From contig NZ_QXIW01000027.1 of assembly GCF_003570985.1 (NCBI RefSeq), positions 89,158 to 153,157 of the forward strand: a stretch of 64,000 nucleotides of DNA, given 5' to 3'. Shown here piece by piece: positions 44,433-58,050 of the stretch. The notes under the pieces are model-generated. The model was given only the letters and a program-made list of their open reading frames with translations. It ran no database searches and was not told the DNA's origin. This stretch comes from Candidatus Cryosericum hinesii. Lineage in GTDB: Bacteria > Caldisericota > Caldisericia > Cryosericales > Cryosericaceae. Every line of letters starts with the position of its first letter. The first letter of the stretch is position 1. Position numbers and translations under genes: made by a program.

Positions 44433-45461
44433 TCATGTACCTGCGGCAGCGAAATCGAAGCCGTCTGCCTTGAGGTCCTCGATGAAGCGGTCGATCTCGG
44501 GGTCTACCGTCTCCAGTTGCACGTTTGGATAATTGAACATGGTGCCTCCGGGTGTCTCGTTGTAGAACGGGCGGTTGCATCCCGGACATCCATGTGTCAC
44601 AAACACGAAATGCCTGTGCAGGAATGACCGCACCTGGACTTCATTGAGGCCGAGGCTATGGATGCTTTTTCGGGCATCATAGGCGACACAGAAATGCTCT
44701 TCTTCCTGCCAATCCAGCAACCCTAGTAGTAACTGAAGCTTGCGGTAGGACATCAGCGCCGGCGGGGTGCCGTGCTCCATACGGGTGCCGCGAACCGGGG
44801 TAAAGGCGAACAGCGACACCAGGACGCCTGCCCGGTGCAGATCGAGCATCAGTTCGGCTGCCTCCATCTCGTCCTCCCCCAGCCCAATAATTAGGTGTGT
44901 CGAGATACGGCCGGGATACTGCCTGACCAGCCCCTTGACCAGCGCTATCGAATCGGCCAGAGACCCACCCCGAAGCTGAGGATAGAGGCGCTCGGAGCAG
45001 CAGTCGATCGCAACCCCAATACGTTGCACGCCAGCAGCAAACAGCTGGTCTGCCTCTTCGAACGTGGTCACCCTGTACGACACGGAGATCGGAACGTCGC
45101 TTGCCTGGCGGATCCGCGGCACAAGCGCGAGCAGTTGCTCCAGCACTCCGCGTGAAGCCGTTGTCTGGAAACAGACCCTCTGGAATGCCCCAGGATGGGC
45201 GACAAGCGCATCAACCAGCTCTTCCTCGCCGACCTCAGGCCAGCTGATGCGTGAAAGCCGGCTGTGATCACCGATGGCACCGCGTCCCTGTCCACAGTAG
45301 GCACAGTCGCTGGAACACTGTCCCCCGACCATGAGGTATGCCGTAGTGGGCGACGCAGCCATCCGGATATCCCTCAGGCCCAGGACAACCAGCGTGCCAA
45401 TGCTTGCCCGCAGACTCACGGGCTCACCTGCCTGCATTCGCGCGTCACTTGTAGAAAACAC
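44433..45461 (-). CDS. Radical SAM protein, BioB-like (candidate LipS2)
   Basis: The 342-residue protein has the radical SAM triad in CSSDCAYCGQG and a second Cys-rich patch near its end, GCPGCNRPFYNETPGG, that could hold an auxiliary cluster. This architecture and pairing with a second radical SAM gene recall the two-component lipoyl synthase LipS1/LipS2, although that assignment is inferred from memory of the family. The start is best placed at GTG 45461, which has GGAGG six bases upstream and overlaps the previous gene; ATG 45485 and 45437 are alternatives. Confidence 0.75.
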   Translation of the reverse strand: MFSTSDARMQAGEPVSLRASIGTLVVLGLRDIRMAASPTTAYLMVGGQCSSDCAYCGQGRGAIGDHSRLSRISWPEVGEEELVDALVAHPGAFQRVCFQTTASRGVLEQLLALVPRIRQASDVPISVSYRVTTFEEADQLFAAGVQRIGVAIDCCSERLYPQLRGGSLADSIALVKGLVRQYPGRISTHLIIGLGEDEMEAAELMLDLHRAGVLVSLFAFTPVRGTRMEHGTPPALMSYRKLQLLLGLLDWQEEEHFCVAYDARKSIHSLGLNEVQVRSFLHRHFVFVTHGCPGCNRPFYNETPGGTMFNYPNVQLETVDPEIDRFIEDLKADGFDFAAAGT

Positions 45462-46278
45462 AGCATTCCTCCACCTGTTCCACATCCTCTGCGCTCGGCT
45501 TCACGCCGACGACGCCACGGAACTGGTACTGTCTCGACAGATGCTCCAACTGCTCACCATAACTGTCAACTCTGGGATACATGCAGCCCAGGACAAGGTC
45601 TGTCGCCGGAAGCTTCAGCCTCGCATAGGCGAACACCGACTCCACAGCATCGATCGGAACAACAGGAACGTTGCCGTAGACCGTCCCCTCCGTGGGGATG
45701 AGGACCAGAAAGACCAGCGACGCCGGCTGAAACGCGATCAGTGAATCGATCGCCGCATACTCTCCGACAACAACGCCACCCTTGAGACCGATCGTGAGGT
45801 GAAGGTTGACCCTCTGCTTCGCAGACGTCAGTTCTTCCGAACTACCCGCTGCCGAGAACGCATCCACCCAGCCCTGGGCTGCGTGCAGGTAGTCGGCACC
45901 AGACCGCTGTAGATGGTAGACGTCATGGATGGTCCCATCATCCCATACATAGTCGAGGGAAACCTTGTCGAAATAGGGTGACAACGCACGGACATCCGCG
46001 TCCGACTGCAGGCCAACGTGAGCATTGATGCGTATTCCCTGCTCATGGACCCATTCGATGAATGCCAGATGTTCCATCAGGGGCAGGCAACCGTGGGAAT
46101 CACTTCCACCGGACAGAAGGATGCTCCGGTACTCTCCCGATTCCAACACGCGACGGGCTGCGGCAACAGGCACCATATGCTGGAGGTAGTGTCCGTTGCA
46201 GTGGTTGCAGTGCAATGCACATTCCTCGCCCGTGACGGACACGGAGAGTGTCCGCCTGGGGACGCAATTGAAGACCAC
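45445..46278 (-). CDS. Radical SAM protein (candidate LipS1)
   Basis: The 277-residue protein has the triad in ECALHCNHC near residue 20 and extra cysteines in LGCMYPR and the C-terminal ECCVFYK. A SGGSDSHG segment fits the SAM-binding GGE-like motif. It overlaps the downstream radical SAM gene and follows the 85-residue MTH1187-like gene by five bases, so three proteins are made together. Candidate sulfur insertion partner; substrate unproven. GTG start. Confidence 0.72.
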   Translation of the reverse strand: MVFNCVPRRTLSVSVTGEECALHCNHCNGHYLQHMVPVAAARRVLESGEYRSILLSGGSDSHGCLPLMEHLAFIEWVHEQGIRINAHVGLQSDADVRALSPYFDKVSLDYVWDDGTIHDVYHLQRSGADYLHAAQGWVDAFSAAGSSEELTSAKQRVNLHLTIGLKGGVVVGEYAAIDSLIAFQPASLVFLVLIPTEGTVYGNVPVVPIDAVESVFAYARLKLPATDLVLGCMYPRVDSYGEQLEHLSRQYQFRGVVGVKPSAEDVEQVEECCVFYK

Positions 46279-46283
46279 GTCTC

Positions 46284-46541
46284 TCAGGTCTTCCGCCCTA
46301 TCTGGGGCATGTCGTTGGCAATGACGAGGGAGATGCTGAGCTTGTCCGTAACCGCGATGGCCTGATACGCCTTGTTGATGGTGGAGAGAACCGTATCCAT
46401 CTCGCCGTAGCAGCTCACCGCCATGTTTCCGACGACACAGCGAACGCCGGCTGCCTCCAATGCACTCTCGAATTCCTTGATTACCACCGCCGTTCTCAAA
46501 CCATCGTATGGAAACAGGATTGCTTGGACCTCAACGTTCAC
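46284..46541 (-). CDS. MTH1187/YkoF-like small protein
   Basis: The 85-residue protein has the ferredoxin-like beta-alpha-beta pattern of the MTH1187/YkoF (thiamin-binding-like) family: AGVRCVVGNMAVSCYGEMDTVLSTINKAY matches the strand, GEMD turn and helix of that group. Members bind small ligands such as thiamin. It starts at a GTG behind AAGGAAGG and leads the operon of the two radical SAM genes. Confidence 0.6.
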   Translation of the reverse strand: MNVEVQAILFPYDGLRTAVVIKEFESALEAAGVRCVVGNMAVSCYGEMDTVLSTINKAYQAIAVTDKLSISLVIANDMPQIGRKT

Positions 46542-46577: not shown

Positions 46578-47951
46578 CTACAGATTATCGAGATCGTCGA
46601 GAGAAGTGGACAGCACAGCGATGACCTCTGGATCCCAGCGTCCCTCGTCAGTCTCCTTATGAAGGATCTCCAGAGCCTGATCGCGCGTGAACGCCGGACG
46701 ATATGTCCGGTCACTTATCAACGCCTCATAGCTGTCGGCCACACTGACGATACGAACAAACTGGGAGACCTGATCCCCCTTCAGACCATCAGGATACCCC
46801 GAACCGTCCATCTTTTCATGATGATGCCGGACGATATCGGCCACCTCGCCGAATCCATGGACGGGTTTGATAATCTTCTCCCCGTACTCGCTGTGTCGTT
46901 GCATCTCGGCCCACTCTGAGGGATCGAGTTTGCCCGGCTTGAAGAGGATCTCTCTGCGTATGACCAGCTTGCCAACATCGTGCAGCGAACCGGCCATCTC
47001 CAGGACCCATAGTCCGTGCCCGTGGACGCCCATTCTCTTGCCAAGGATGACACTGATACTTGCGACCTTCTGGTTGTGACGTGGCTCCGTGGCCTCAGCC
47101 AGTTCAATGGCGTTCGTGATGACGCCAACGACCTCGGACAACGCGAAGCGCTGTTTGGTCATGCCCCTCAGCCGCATCAGGGAACGCATGCGCACGCGCA
47201 GTTCTTCCCACGACACAGGTTTGTTGAGAAACTCGTCAGCACCGCTCTCAAACCCCTTGAGCTTGTCCACGAGTCCCGACAGCACCGTCAACATGATGAC
47301 GGGCGTCGTGCCCAGACGCTCCGTCGCACGAATCTCCTTCACAACCTCGAACCCGTTGATGTCAGGCAGAAGCCCGTCCAGCAGAATGATGTCGAAGTTA
47401 TCGGTAGCAGCCTGCTCTATGCCTTCACGACCCGTCCGAACCCACGTCACCTGGTACCCCCAGCTGCTCAGCTGCTCCGACAGCGCCACCCCATCGATTG
47501 CGCTGTCCTCGACGATAAGCACGGGCGCCTGATCGCCCTCTCCCTGACGTTCGCGCGAGAAGAAAACCAGCTCGACCCTGCGAATCATGTCGTCGTAGGT
47601 GATGGGTTTGACGACATAGTCGAACGCCCCCATCTGCATCGCTTTCATGACGTCGTCGTCCTTGCTGATGGCAGACACGACGATGATGGGGATGTTCTTG
47701 GTCGACAGGGCGGTGCGAAGAGTCTCGAGGACCGTCAGGCCAGTGATGTCCGGGAGGCGGAGATCCAGCAAAATAAGGCCGGGCTGTTCCTTGACAGCCA
47801 AGTCAATGCCTTCCCAGCCAGTGCTTGCGGTGACGGCTGCATAGCCCGCTCGTCGCAACATGTCTCCATACAGATGCAGGCTCTCGATGTCGTCATCGAC
47901 TACCAAGACCTTTCGTTCCACCAGCGCACCCCCGGTTCTGTCCTTGTTCAT
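46578..47951 (-). CDS. Double-receiver HD-GYP response regulator
   Basis: The 457-residue protein has two CheY-like receivers (residues about 15-130, KVLVVDDDIE and DLRLPD; and 142-265, VLIVEDSAID and LDGLLPD) and an HD-GYP domain (HDVGKL, then HHEKMDGSGYPDGLKG) at 275-457. The second receiver keeps its phosphoacceptor Asp (ILLDG). HD-GYP domains hydrolyse cyclic di-GMP. No kinase is adjacent. The start may instead be GTG 47921, preceded by GGGGG. Confidence 0.9.
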   Translation of the reverse strand: MNKDRTGGALVERKVLVVDDDIESLHLYGDMLRRAGYAAVTASTGWEGIDLAVKEQPGLILLDLRLPDITGLTVLETLRTALSTKNIPIIVVSAISKDDDVMKAMQMGAFDYVVKPITYDDMIRRVELVFFSRERQGEGDQAPVLIVEDSAIDGVALSEQLSSWGYQVTWVRTGREGIEQAATDNFDIILLDGLLPDINGFEVVKEIRATERLGTTPVIMLTVLSGLVDKLKGFESGADEFLNKPVSWEELRVRMRSLMRLRGMTKQRFALSEVVGVITNAIELAEATEPRHNQKVASISVILGKRMGVHGHGLWVLEMAGSLHDVGKLVIRREILFKPGKLDPSEWAEMQRHSEYGEKIIKPVHGFGEVADIVRHHHEKMDGSGYPDGLKGDQVSQFVRIVSVADSYEALISDRTYRPAFTRDQALEILHKETDEGRWDPEVIAVLSTSLDDLDNL

Positions 47952-48105
47952 CGCCCGCTTCCAACAAACGCGCGGAAACAAATCGGCAACTGCACTCCCA
48001 ACAACGCTCTTATAGAGTATTATCTATGTATCCGGGCAAAAAGCAATTCCCGGCGCAAGGGCTGCAAGCTTTGGGAACACAGGAAGGCGGACCTCGGAGG
48101 TACCA

Positions 48106-53701: not shown

Positions 53702-53772
53702 GCTTCGGCTAGAGGCTCATCACGGGAGCAATTGATATCATGGTGTAACGTGATACTATGAAATAGTAAAGC

Positions 53773-53857
53773 AATTGCGGGGGAACTCTTCGGAGTTGAG
53801 AAGGTTAAAACCTGACCCTTTGAACCTGTCAGTTCACACTGTCGTAGGGAAGCGAAT
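53773..53857 (+). ncRNA. TPP riboswitch (THI element)
   Basis: The leader has a P1 stem AATTGC/GCGAATT, the GTTGAGA loop, CTGACCCTTTGAACCTG and the GTAGGGAA motif of thiamin pyrophosphate aptamers in correct order. It is followed by a terminator and precedes thiD. Thiamin pyrophosphate would lower expression of the salvage operon. Confidence 0.95.
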
Positions 53858-53866
53858 TAACGTGAT

Positions 53867-53901
53867 AAAAGGCCCCGCTGAACTTGGCAGGTGCCTTTTT
53901 T
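53867..53901 (+). terminator. Riboswitch-controlled terminator
   Basis: AAAAGGC pairs with GCCTTTT, followed by a run of T. It ends 20 bases before the thiD start. Its place just after the aptamer suggests transcription-level control. Confidence 0.75.
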
Positions 53902-53920
53902 GTTATGTAAGGAGAGAGCC

Positions 53921-54727
53921 ATGAAAAAAGTTCTGACTATCGCTGGTTCGGATTGCAGTGGCGGCGCCGGTATCCAGGCCGATCTCAAAACCTTCGCAGC
54001 TCATGGCGTTTACGGCATGAGCGTGATTGTCTCGGTGGTTGCGGAGAATACGTTTCGTGTCATAGACATGCAGGATATCATCCCCGAACTGATCGAAAAG
54101 CAGATCGACGCGGTTTTTGAAGATATCGGAGTGGATGCTGTGAAGGTGGGCATGCTGTCGCACTCTTGCTGCATGGAAGCTGTAGAGCGCAAGCTCAGGG
54201 AATACAGACCGCAGCATATCGTGATCGACCCCGTGATGGTTGCCAAAAATGGCTGTCCCCTCATGGACCCGAATGCCGTCGACACGCTTATTCACATCAT
54301 ACTCCCGCTCGCAGATGTCCTTACTCCCAATATCCCGGAGGCCGAAAAAATCGCGGGATTTCAGATAACCTCCGCCGGAGATATGGAGCGAGCGGCAAAG
54401 TGCATTTATGAGCTGGGAGCAAAAAATGTCCTGGTCAAGGGCGGCCATGCCACCGGCGACGCACTGGACATCCTGTACGACGGCGAAAGGTTCTATCACT
54501 TCAGCGCAGAACGCATCAACACCAAAAACACGCACGGCACCGGATGCACGTATTCCTCTGCAATTGCTTCTAACCTTGCGCTGGGTCTTCCGTTGGAAGA
54601 GGCAGTGAAACGGGCAAAAGAGTATACTACAACAGCGATTCGGCATTCGCTTGCCATAGGAAAAGGCTGTGGGCCGACCCACCATTTTTACGACCTTTAC
54701 AAAGCAGCGGGCATTTCCGATGCATAA
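53921..54727 (+). CDS. thiD: Hydroxymethylpyrimidine/phosphomethylpyrimidine kinase
   Basis: The 268-residue enzyme has [22 protein letters not shown] at the start (key [14 protein letters not shown]), [17 protein letters not shown] and the C-terminal [13 protein letters not shown] (anion hole and catalytic Asp-like position). It phosphorylates HMP twice. ATG 53921 has GGAGAG upstream; the codon at 53891 lies inside the terminator. First gene of thiD-cytX-thiM-thiE-HAD. Confidence 0.96.
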
Positions 54728-55934
54728 CAACAAAAAACTCGGCACGTTCAGCCTTTTCAACCTCTGGGCAGGAGCAGCCATTTCGCTTGCAGAAATCATG
54801 ACTGGCGGCTTGTTCGCGCCATTAGGGCTGCTCAGGGGGATACTCCTGATCCTGGCGGGGCATCTCATCGGCTGCCTGCTCCTGTCGCTGACTGGCCTGA
54901 TCGGATTTCGGGAGAAGAAGCCCGCACTGATCGCCAGCCGCATGGCATTTGGCCGATACGGCTCCTACCTGATTTCTGCGGCTAACATTATCCAGCTGAT
55001 AGGATGGACAGCAATTATGCTCATCCAGTGCGCCAATTCGATCAGTGCCATCACATCAAAACTTGCCGGCTTCACGGGCTTCGCGTTGTTTGTGGTGATC
55101 GTTGGTGCCATTGTCGCGGTTTGGGTTTTTGTTGTCGATAAGGGTGGCAATGCCCTCAACAGCGCTGCAGTCATTCTACTTTTTGTGCTTTGCCTGCTGA
55201 TCCTGGGACTAGTGATCGGCGGTCGGGGCATGGTTTCGTCGCCGGGCACGAGGAGCGCCGCCACAACGCTTTCGGTCGGCGCAGCACTGGAAATGAGTAT
55301 CGTTATGCCGCTGACCTGGCTGCCGATAATTTCGGACTACACCATGTGGGCAAACAGTGCAAAAGCAAGTTTCTGGGGGAGTTTTTCTGGTTATTTCATA
55401 GCCAGTTCCTTTATGTACATTACCGGGCTTACTGCTGTCCTGTTTACCGGATCGTCCGATATTGCTACTATCATCCTGCATCTGAGCATCGGCGTCGCTG
55501 GACTGCTTGTGGTGGTGCTCTCGACGGTAACGACGACCTATCTGGACGTTTATTCGGCAGTCATGTCTATCCTGAACATCGCTCCGAAGATATCAAAGAG
55601 GCTGCTGATTCTTCTGATATCGGCGTTGGGAACGTTGATAGCACTGTTTTTCCCCATGGAGCAGTATGAAAATTTCCTGTACGCGATCGGCTCGATTTTT
55701 GCACCGGCCTTTGCAGTGGTGCTTCTCGACTATTTTGTTTTTCGCGCTGACCGTTCGACAACCACCTTCAACGTCCCTGGCATTCTTTCAGCCGTTATAG
55801 GTACAGCAACCTATTATTTCTTTATGAAGCTGGATCTTCCTGCTGGATCGACAGTGCCGTCGATGCTATTGACGGCAGTGGTCTACATCGTTTTTCGGAG
55901 CGTGTTGAAGGATCGAAACGCACAAAAATGTTAA
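54720..55934 (+). CDS. cytX: Hydroxymethylpyrimidine transporter CytX
   Basis: The 404-residue NCS1-type permease has about 12 helices, an early FSLFNLWAGAAISLAEIMTG and SDYTMWA near its middle. CytX proteins in TPP-riboswitch operons import the pyrimidine precursor. ATG 54720 overlaps thiD by eight bases, and the ATG at 54669 lies far inside it. Confidence 0.9.
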   Translation: MHNNKKLGTFSLFNLWAGAAISLAEIMTGGLFAPLGLLRGILLILAGHLIGCLLLSLTGLIGFREKKPALIASRMAFGRYGSYLISAANIIQLIGWTAIMLIQCANSISAITSKLAGFTGFALFVVIVGAIVAVWVFVVDKGGNALNSAAVILLFVLCLLILGLVIGGRGMVSSPGTRSAATTLSVGAALEMSIVMPLTWLPIISDYTMWANSAKASFWGSFSGYFIASSFMYITGLTAVLFTGSSDIATIILHLSIGVAGLLVVVLSTVTTTYLDVYSAVMSILNIAPKISKRLLILLISALGTLIALFFPMEQYENFLYAIGSIFAPAFAVVLLDYFVFRADRSTTTFNVPGILSAVIGTATYYFFMKLDLPAGSTVPSMLLTAVVYIVFRSVLKDRNAQKC

Positions 55935-55957
55935 CAATTCAGACCAGGAGCGTGAAC

Positions 55958-56776
55958 ATGATTCAGGACATCGTAGAAAATCTCAGAGCCGTCCGCGAAA
56001 AAAAACCGCTGGTCCACCATATCACCAACTATGTGACGGTCAACGACTGTGCGAACATCGTGCTTGCCATCGGTGCTTCCCCGATCATGGCAGACGACAT
56101 TGACGAGGTGGAAGCCATTACTGCTATTTCTTCGGCGCTGGTGTTGAATATCGGGACATTGAACAGCAGGACGGCGGCATCAATGTTTGCTGCCGGGAAA
56201 AAAGCCAACGAACTCAACATCCCTGTCATTCTCGACCCCGTGGGCGCAGGTGCATCAGAGCTACGGAACCGGACGATCGAAAGACTGTTGAAAGAAATAA
56301 ACATAGCCGTTTTGCGCGGGAACATGTCCGAGATCCGTTTTGTTGCGGGGCTCCAAGTCACCACAAGGGGCGTTGACGCCTCTGAAGCCGACCAGAAAAG
56401 CGAAAAGGAAATCGGGCGGAACACTGCGGAGAAAGTGGCAAAACAGTTCGGTTGCGTAGCGGCGATCACGGGCGCAACGGATATCGTATCGGACGGAAAA
56501 CGTACGGTTTACATCGAAAACGGGACAAATCTGCTTTCCAGTGTGACAGGAACGGGATGCATGTGTACCTCCTTGGTGGGCGCTTTTTGTGGAGCTGCTA
56601 CCGACTTCCTCATCGCAGCGACAGGAGGCATCCTCTCCATGGGCATTGCGGGCGAGCTTGCAGCAGAAAGCGCCGGCGACAAGGGAAATGGCAGCTTTCA
56701 CGTGGCCATCGTTGATGAAATCAGCAAACTGAACGCCGAAACCCTTGTGAAGAGAGCGAAAATCCATGAAGCCTGA
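55958..56776 (+). CDS. thiM: Hydroxyethylthiazole kinase
   Basis: The 272-residue enzyme has [21 protein letters not shown]-type N-terminus (key ITNYV, NDCAN), LDPVGAGAS, and [16 protein letters not shown] with the catalytic Cys/Gly loop. It phosphorylates thiazole for salvage. ATG 55958 follows AGGAGCG. Confidence 0.96.
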
Positions 56777-57413
56777 GATCGATTACAGCCTCTACCTTGT
56801 AACAGACCGCGATCTGATGAGCACGCCAACGCTGGAACAGGCAGTCGAACAAGCAATAGAAGGCGGGAGCACACTTATTCAGCTGCGGGAGAAAACAGCC
56901 TCCTCGCTGGAGTTTTATCAAATGGCGGTAACCATCAAACGACTGACCGACAGCCACCATATTCCGCTGATCATCAACGACCGGGTCGACATAGCCCTGG
57001 CGGTCGACACCACTGGTGTGCATATCGGGCAAAGTGATCTGCCAGCCGGGATCGTCCGCCAGATCATCGGGAAGATCAAGATCCTTGGCGTTTCCGTCTC
57101 TTCTGTAGCCGAAGCCGTGAAGGCGAAAAAGGACGGCGCGGATTATCTTGGCGTCGGTGCCATGTTCGCCACAGGGACAAAAACCGATGCTGAACTAGTG
57201 ACAATAAACGAATTAAGGGGCATAAGATCCGCCGTATCTTTGCCGATCGTTGTCATCGGCGGGATCAACCTCACGACCATACCGTCCTTCGCGAACACGG
57301 GGATCGATGGGATCGCTGTCGTTTCCGCGCTGATTGCCGCGAAGGACATTACCGAGGCGGCAAAACAGTTAAAAGCATCGTTTTCACGGACAAAAGGAGA
57401 GGAGGATGCTTGA
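56766..57413 (+). CDS. thiE: Thiamin-phosphate synthase
   Basis: The 215-residue TIM barrel has LYLVTDRDL, the phosphate-binding [16 protein letters not shown] and the [13 protein letters not shown] segment. It joins HMP-PP and thiazole phosphate. It overlaps thiM by 11 bases and the HAD gene by eight. Confidence 0.96.
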
Positions 57414-58050
57414 TTTTAGAGCGGCGATCTTTGACTTGGACGGGACACTGATCGATTCCATGGGAGTATGGGAGGATATCGACATCGATTTTCTGGCAAA
57501 ACGCCATTTATCCGTACCAGAGGGATATATCAGTGAAATTTCCGCAAAGAGTTTTAAAGAAGCTGCAGAATATACGATCTCCCTCTTTGGCCTAAAAGAG
57601 AGGGCAGAAGATATCATCAAAGAATTGAACCAGATGGCCATTGACGAATACGGTCATCATGTCCCATTAAAACCTTATGCAAAAGAATATCTCCTCTTTT
57701 TAAAGAGACAGGGGATCAAACTTGGCGTAGCTACCGCGTTGCCAAAGGTACTTTATGAGCCTGTATTGAAAAACAATGGCATTTATGTCTTGTTCGACGC
57801 GTTTGCTTCCACTGATGAAGTTGTCCACGGGAAAGGAAGCCCTGATATTTATCTGCTGGCAGCCAAAAAATTGGGTGTTCCCCCTTGTGACTGTATTGCC
57901 TTTGAAGATGTCTTGGCCGGTATTCAGGGGGTCGTATCAGCGGGCATGCGCGCATACGGCATATATGACAGATATTCAGAGCATGAGCAGGCGCAGATCC
58001 AAAAGTTATCAAAACAGTATATTTATAGCTTTGCAGAAGTGCTTCCCTAA
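57406..58050 (+). CDS. HAD-family hydrolase of the thiamin operon
   Basis: A 214-residue HAD protein with [10 protein letters not shown] (catalytic Asp pair), ATALPK and ECA-type [10 protein letters not shown]. As last gene of the thi operon it may be a thiamin-monophosphate phosphatase or precursor phosphatase, but other HAD substrates are possible. Base composition is lower in GC (about 43 percent by eye) than the chromosome. Confidence 0.82.

Follow-up and report, generated by a model that had tools for sequence, protein, structure and literature searches.

The closest described counterparts of the locus studied here are the LipS1/LipS2 lipoyl synthases of T. kodakarensis and of sulfur-oxidising bacteria. 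The cluster ligands of T. kodakarensis LipS2 were experimentally identified as C39/C43/C46 for the radical SAM cluster and C85, C276, C279 and H178 for the auxiliary cluster, and those of its LipS1 partner are C27/C31/C34, H159, C230, C276 and C277 (PMC9585515). According to the main text of the survey that covers sulfur-oxidising bacteria, LipT occurs in about 53% of bacteria with LipS1/S2 (we therefore do not treat it as defining); the same main text names neither Caldisericota, Cryosericota, thiamine, MTH1187 nor YkoF, and its supplementary tables may list the lineage (PMC10332631). Candidatus Cryosericum is a permafrost-associated genus, lipoic acid is an essential cofactor, and the literature that we searched contained nothing on lipoate in Caldisericum or Cryosericum. 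No biochemical work on LipS1/LipS2 from Caldisericota is known to us.

In this work, we analysed a stretch of 64,000 nucleotides (the window) from a Candidatus Cryosericum genome (Caldisericota; 1.94 Mb in 39 contigs, 80% complete; G000), together with a class-wide comparison of 49 genomes, 44 of them outside family f5 and 5 within it, in which the Caldisericaceae correspond to family f3. Genomes of the class with at least 90% completeness and little contamination were considered of good quality (n=23), and gene absences are based on six-frame searches of the genomes. A sequence-only reading had proposed a candidate LipS1/LipS2 unit at this locus, made up of two radical SAM genes and an added MTH1187-like gene. 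The three open reading frames were all recovered (Table 1), as were the motifs GCPGCNRPF and CMYPR and, at residues 271-273, the C-terminal ECC. The LipS1/LipS2 assignment was upheld by profiles, ligands, phylogeny and genome context, and we consider, with a probability of roughly 0.93, that lipS1 and lipS2 encode a two-protein LipS1/LipS2 lipoyl synthase that replaces LipA, the common one-protein synthase, with the small gene as a conserved neighbour and not a catalytic subunit; this reading is carried by family membership, ligand conservation, the mutual exclusivity of LipA and LipS1/LipS2, and gene context.

Table 1. Features of the lipS1-lipS2 locus and of the nearby thiamine operon (positions within the window).
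Feature	Position	Strand	Description
lipS2	44433..45485	-	350 aa, radical SAM
lipS1	45445..46278	-	277 aa, radical SAM
YkoF-type single-domain ligand-binding-like gene	46284..46541	-	85 aa, 5-nt gap upstream of lipS1
Response regulator	46578..47981	-	two receiver domains and HD-GYP-like output; ORF translation, domains read by eye
Thiamine operon	53769-58050	+	TPP riboswitch (RF00059, 61.8 bits), then thiD, CytX-like permease, thiM, thiE, HAD phosphatase

In the profile search, the lipS2 product scored 320.8 bits over its full length against NF053743 (cut-off 270). In an alignment of 15 class proteins, C57/C61/C64 (radical SAM) and C105, H197, C300 and C303 (auxiliary) were invariant, at positions corresponding to all seven published T. 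kodakarensis LipS2 ligands; on profile and alignment evidence, we assign the gene to LipS2. The two radical SAM genes had been described as overlapping in frame, but their frames actually differ, and they share 41 nt only when LipS2 is taken to start at its first ATG (45485). Because LipS2 homology begins at residue ~24-25 in the class alignment, some Cryosericum congeners carry lipS1 and lipS2 without overlap, and the sequence AGGTGA (a possible ribosome-binding site) precedes a GTG at 45419, this GTG is the probable true start, in which case about 25 nt separate the two genes.

The 277-aa protein matched NF053742 as its sole family, over its full length, with 196.5 bits; this is below the curated cut-off of 230, which is an annotation threshold and not a biochemical feature. 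Its Caldisericota relatives score 245-274 bits, above that cut-off, and in the LipS1 tree the Cryosericum sequences make up a single long-stemmed clade (100), grouping with other Caldisericota LipS1, including those of Caldisericaceae (SH-aLRT 89). Since the class relatives exceed the cut-off and the tree places the sequence among them, we read this protein as a divergent LipS1. Furthermore, C20/C24/C27 (radical SAM) and H160, C232, C272 and C273 (auxiliary) were invariant in 42 LipS1 sequences from Caldisericota, Bacillota, Chloroflexota, Thermoplasmatota and one candidate phylum, and correspond to all seven published T. kodakarensis LipS1 ligands. Neither radical SAM protein had its best match in an unrelated family, and no canonical LipA was detected.

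This last result extended to the class, as LipA was not found in this genome or in any of the 44 class genomes outside f5; in f5, LipA was present in 4 of 5 genomes, LipS1 was not found, and no LipS2 exceeded the cut-off. Thus, LipA and LipS1/LipS2 are mutually exclusive in the genomes searched. An internal in-frame TGA suspected in an f5 LipA (L232) was not confirmed and looks like an ordinary stop. As a separate observation, family f4 carries a very divergent LipS1 located far from LipS2.

Of the 49 class genomes, 44 contain GcvH, among them every one of the 23 good-quality genomes; in Cryosericum, 11 of 15 have it. In the genome search suggested by the sequence-only reading, lipA was missing and an LplA/LipM-like candidate of 267 aa was located (G000:C8; L002), below the curated cut-offs. 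The genome, which is 80% complete, yielded no GcvH, and both of its good biotin/lipoyl domains are biotin carriers (EAMKMEN). The system comprises adjacent lipS1 and lipS2 genes and a missing LipA, with GcvH in congeners and across the class, though not in its own incomplete genome. In family f2 (L197), the genes gcvT-gcvH-gcvPA-gcvPB-lipS1-lipS2-lplA lie in one row (gcv and lplA were named from their translations and by the GcvH search), a strong context in support of lipoyl synthesis. LipS1-LipS2 gene pairs were also found in Bacillota, Chloroflexota and Thermoplasmatota.

Additional GcvH-like genes were observed in two families. In f4, three lie within about 1.3 kb (G021:C1:54413-55651 and its equivalents in G017, G029 and G033), and in several Caldisericaceae, second copies with an in-frame stop (G016:C13:42591, G043:C41:4936, G045:C34:317 and G046:C221:5342) are possibly decayed paralogues.

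Regarding the small gene, its dN/dS against other Cryosericum was 0.05-0.14 (0.11-0.17 for lipS1/lipS2); therefore, it is a real, functional gene under strong purifying selection, and not a chance open reading frame. The MTH1187-like label originally given to its product did not hold. The protein scored 19.3 bits against PF01910, below the gathering score of 24.9, and had no NCBIfam match in the profile search. Five of six other members of its group matched PF07615 (Ykof) at 24.4-56.6 bits (cut-off 21), the window protein itself having no PF07615 match, and a joint subfamily profile of the group matched both repeats of B. subtilis YkoF at 4.7e-20, better than MTH1187. In the family tree, where few columns were available and hence only the deep split was used, a single-domain YkoF-type clade was separated from the MTH1187/TM0486 clade (99 on both sides), and the window gene fell in the former on a very long branch (Cryosericum branch, 1.79). 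MTH1187 membership was rejected on the sub-threshold PF01910 score and on this placement, and the protein is classed, by sequence, as a single-domain YkoF-type protein. Its structural model (pLDDT 87.3) displays a ferredoxin-like fold that matches 1YQH, TM0486, MTH1187 and YkoF, with a TM-score of 0.80 to 1VK8. The PF01910 thiamine-binding family (MTH1187/TM0486) thus has the same fold; the small protein differs from it in its separate clade and in missing the C-terminal part.

The sequence-only reading had viewed the small gene as a new element of the synthase. Linkage, derived from gene coordinates, is indeed conserved in two families: the gene immediately precedes lipS1 in 12 of 12 Cryosericum genomes with lipS1 and in 9 of 13 assessable Caldisericaceae, several of which show the order methyltransferase-YkoF-type-lipS1(-lipS2). 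However, a methyltransferase is the usual companion of the YkoF-type gene, which also occurs in organisms without LipS1/LipS2. In f2, f4 and f5, the last of which uses LipA, the methyltransferase-YkoF-type pair lies away from lipS1, and the YkoF-type gene was absent from the flanks (up to 6 kb) of the LipS loci examined outside the phylum. In the genomes carrying those extra-phylum loci, six of the best nine YkoF-type matches adjoin a methyltransferase, and at least two lie with thiamine-precursor-type ABC transporter genes, assigned by reading the sequences. Class I SAM methyltransferase genes paired with a single-domain YkoF-type gene are widespread in Chloroflexota, Bacillota and Caldisericota (L245, L246, L247, L248, L251, L252; L182-L192), sometimes beside THI5-like transporter genes. 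In this genome, a class I methyltransferase gene (L002, 2147-2884, +) lies divergently beside the LplA/LipM-like gene, and it resembles the YkoF-adjacent methyltransferases of families f5 and f6. Most simply, the methyltransferase-YkoF pair would be a widespread module that has a thiamine-type ligand and that was joined to lipS1 in two families. The small protein is related to thiamine/pyrimidine-binding families; it most likely binds a thiamine-type or pyrimidine ligand in the cytoplasm, and it is most likely not a synthase subunit.

The response-regulator gene, which has the same orientation as the YkoF-type gene and lies 36 nt upstream of it, is possibly the first gene of the transcription unit and is not part of the lipoyl synthase. 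The order of the genes at the locus, including this upstream response-regulator/HD gene and a convergent downstream parB, is kept in the Cryosericum congeners examined, and in Caldisericum a methyltransferase gene stands in place of the response-regulator gene. The thiamine operon has a G+C content of 0.49-0.54 vs ~0.59 and, among six congeners compared, was found at the same site only in this genome and G008; for both reasons it is probably an acquired thiamine-salvage operon. A tie between the small gene and this thiD-cytX-thiM-thiE operon was considered and rejected, as the operon is present in G000 and one of six congeners, and the small gene always.

Regarding its role, the YkoF-type gene is quite likely a separate thiamine-precursor-handling gene that simply shares the lipS1-lipS2 transcription unit. 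YkoF, TM0486 and MTH1187 are its closest solved structures, Bacillota relatives neighbour a methyltransferase and genes for an ABC transporter whose binding protein is THI5/NMT1-like, and methyltransferase-YkoF pairs without lipS1 are conserved in f2, f4 and f5. This account fits less easily with a lipS1 linkage that survived in two families despite changes in the other neighbours; besides, neither the methyltransferase neighbour nor the C-terminal SNxCP motif seen in its relatives has been retained in the Cryosericum copy, whose present ligand may hence be a different one. The same linkage, kept in spite of different flanks, could instead point to a functional third component of the synthase, for instance a protein whose ligand binding gates LipS1, or one coordinating thiamine and lipoate supply for 2-oxoacid dehydrogenases, as could the strong purifying selection on a highly diverged, seemingly re-specialised Cryosericum version, and the pyruvate-dehydrogenase E1-like genes near lipS1 in one genus (L192). 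We regard this as unlikely: T. kodakarensis LipS1 and LipS2 are active in vitro without a YkoF-type protein (PMC9585515), the gene is not beside lipS1/lipS2 in f2, f4 or the extra-phylum flanks examined, the LipA-bearing family f5, which lacks LipS1/LipS2, has it as well, and it usually goes with a methyltransferase, also close to genes for thiamine-precursor transporters. A dedicated ligand-binding partner of LipS1/LipS2 in Cryosericaceae and Caldisericaceae, which would couple lipoylation to the supply of a thiamine-type cofactor, seems improbable; if true, the YkoF-type protein would serve a lipoyl synthase as a small-molecule-binding accessory. To our knowledge, no other such accessory has been described.

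Concerning the radical SAM pair itself, the AlphaFold model of LipS1 (mean pLDDT 95.5) found its best folds in biotin synthase, HydE and PylB, and lipoyl synthases (LipA) were matched too; a sequence-only search for solved structures gave nothing useful for LipS1. LipS1 was once annotated as a biotin synthase, and a biotin-synthase fold is expected for LipS1/LipS2. That the two proteins are enzymes of the biotin-synthase or HydE/PylB type, serving a different sulfur insertion or a rearrangement, as this fold and a weak BioB match of LipS2 might suggest, is highly improbable, since that match (51 bits vs a cut-off of 225) is far under the 320.8 bits of the LipS2 profile, the auxiliary ligands are exactly those of LipS1/LipS2, the pair is made of two different enzymes, and their relatives lie in a row with gcv genes; a biotin synthase, HydE or PylB identity was rejected on profile scores and ligands.

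Under the LipS1/LipS2 lipoyl synthase reading, the LplA/LipM-like transferase would attach octanoate to the GcvH lysine, an acceptor that for this particular genome is taken from its congeners. By analogy with the reaction order in T. kodakarensis, LipS2 would use SAM and [4Fe-4S] clusters to insert sulfur at C8 of octanoyl-lysine, and LipS1 would then add the second sulfur at C6 of 8-mercaptooctanoyl-lysine. The lipoyl group so formed would serve the glycine cleavage system, LipS1/LipS2 acting in place of LipA in the Caldisericota families with the pair. One bacterial class would then hold two lipoate routes, LipA in one family and LipS1/LipS2 in others, with GcvH kept throughout; therefore, automated pathway calls that rely on LipA would wrongly count both Cryosericum and Caldisericum among the lipoate auxotrophs. 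The conserved YkoF-type neighbour constitutes a concrete lead on a link between a thiamine-type ligand and lipoylation.

The enzymes are of a known kind, here with a divergent LipS1. Like T. kodakarensis LipS1/LipS2 (TK2109/TK2248; PMC9585515) and those of sulfur-oxidising bacteria (PMC10332631), the pair consists of two radical SAM proteins with CX3CX2C motifs, and it shares with both known systems the auxiliary-cluster ligands, the adjacent genes, the missing LipA, and a GcvH and an LplA/LipM-like gene in the lineage. By its subfamily profile, the small protein falls in the domain family of B. subtilis YkoF (PF07615; 1S99), and its model has the ferredoxin-like fold; YkoF is a tandem repeat, whereas the small protein is a single domain linked to lipS1, and the Cryosericum copies are very diverged, without the SNxCP present in other single-domain members. 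In sulfur oxidisers the cluster includes lpl(AB) and lipT, whereas at the Cryosericum locus neither lies beside lipS1/lipS2, the LplA/LipM-like gene being located elsewhere in the genome; the divergent LipS1 and the YkoF-type gene in front further distinguish the Cryosericum locus from the known LipS1/LipS2 systems.
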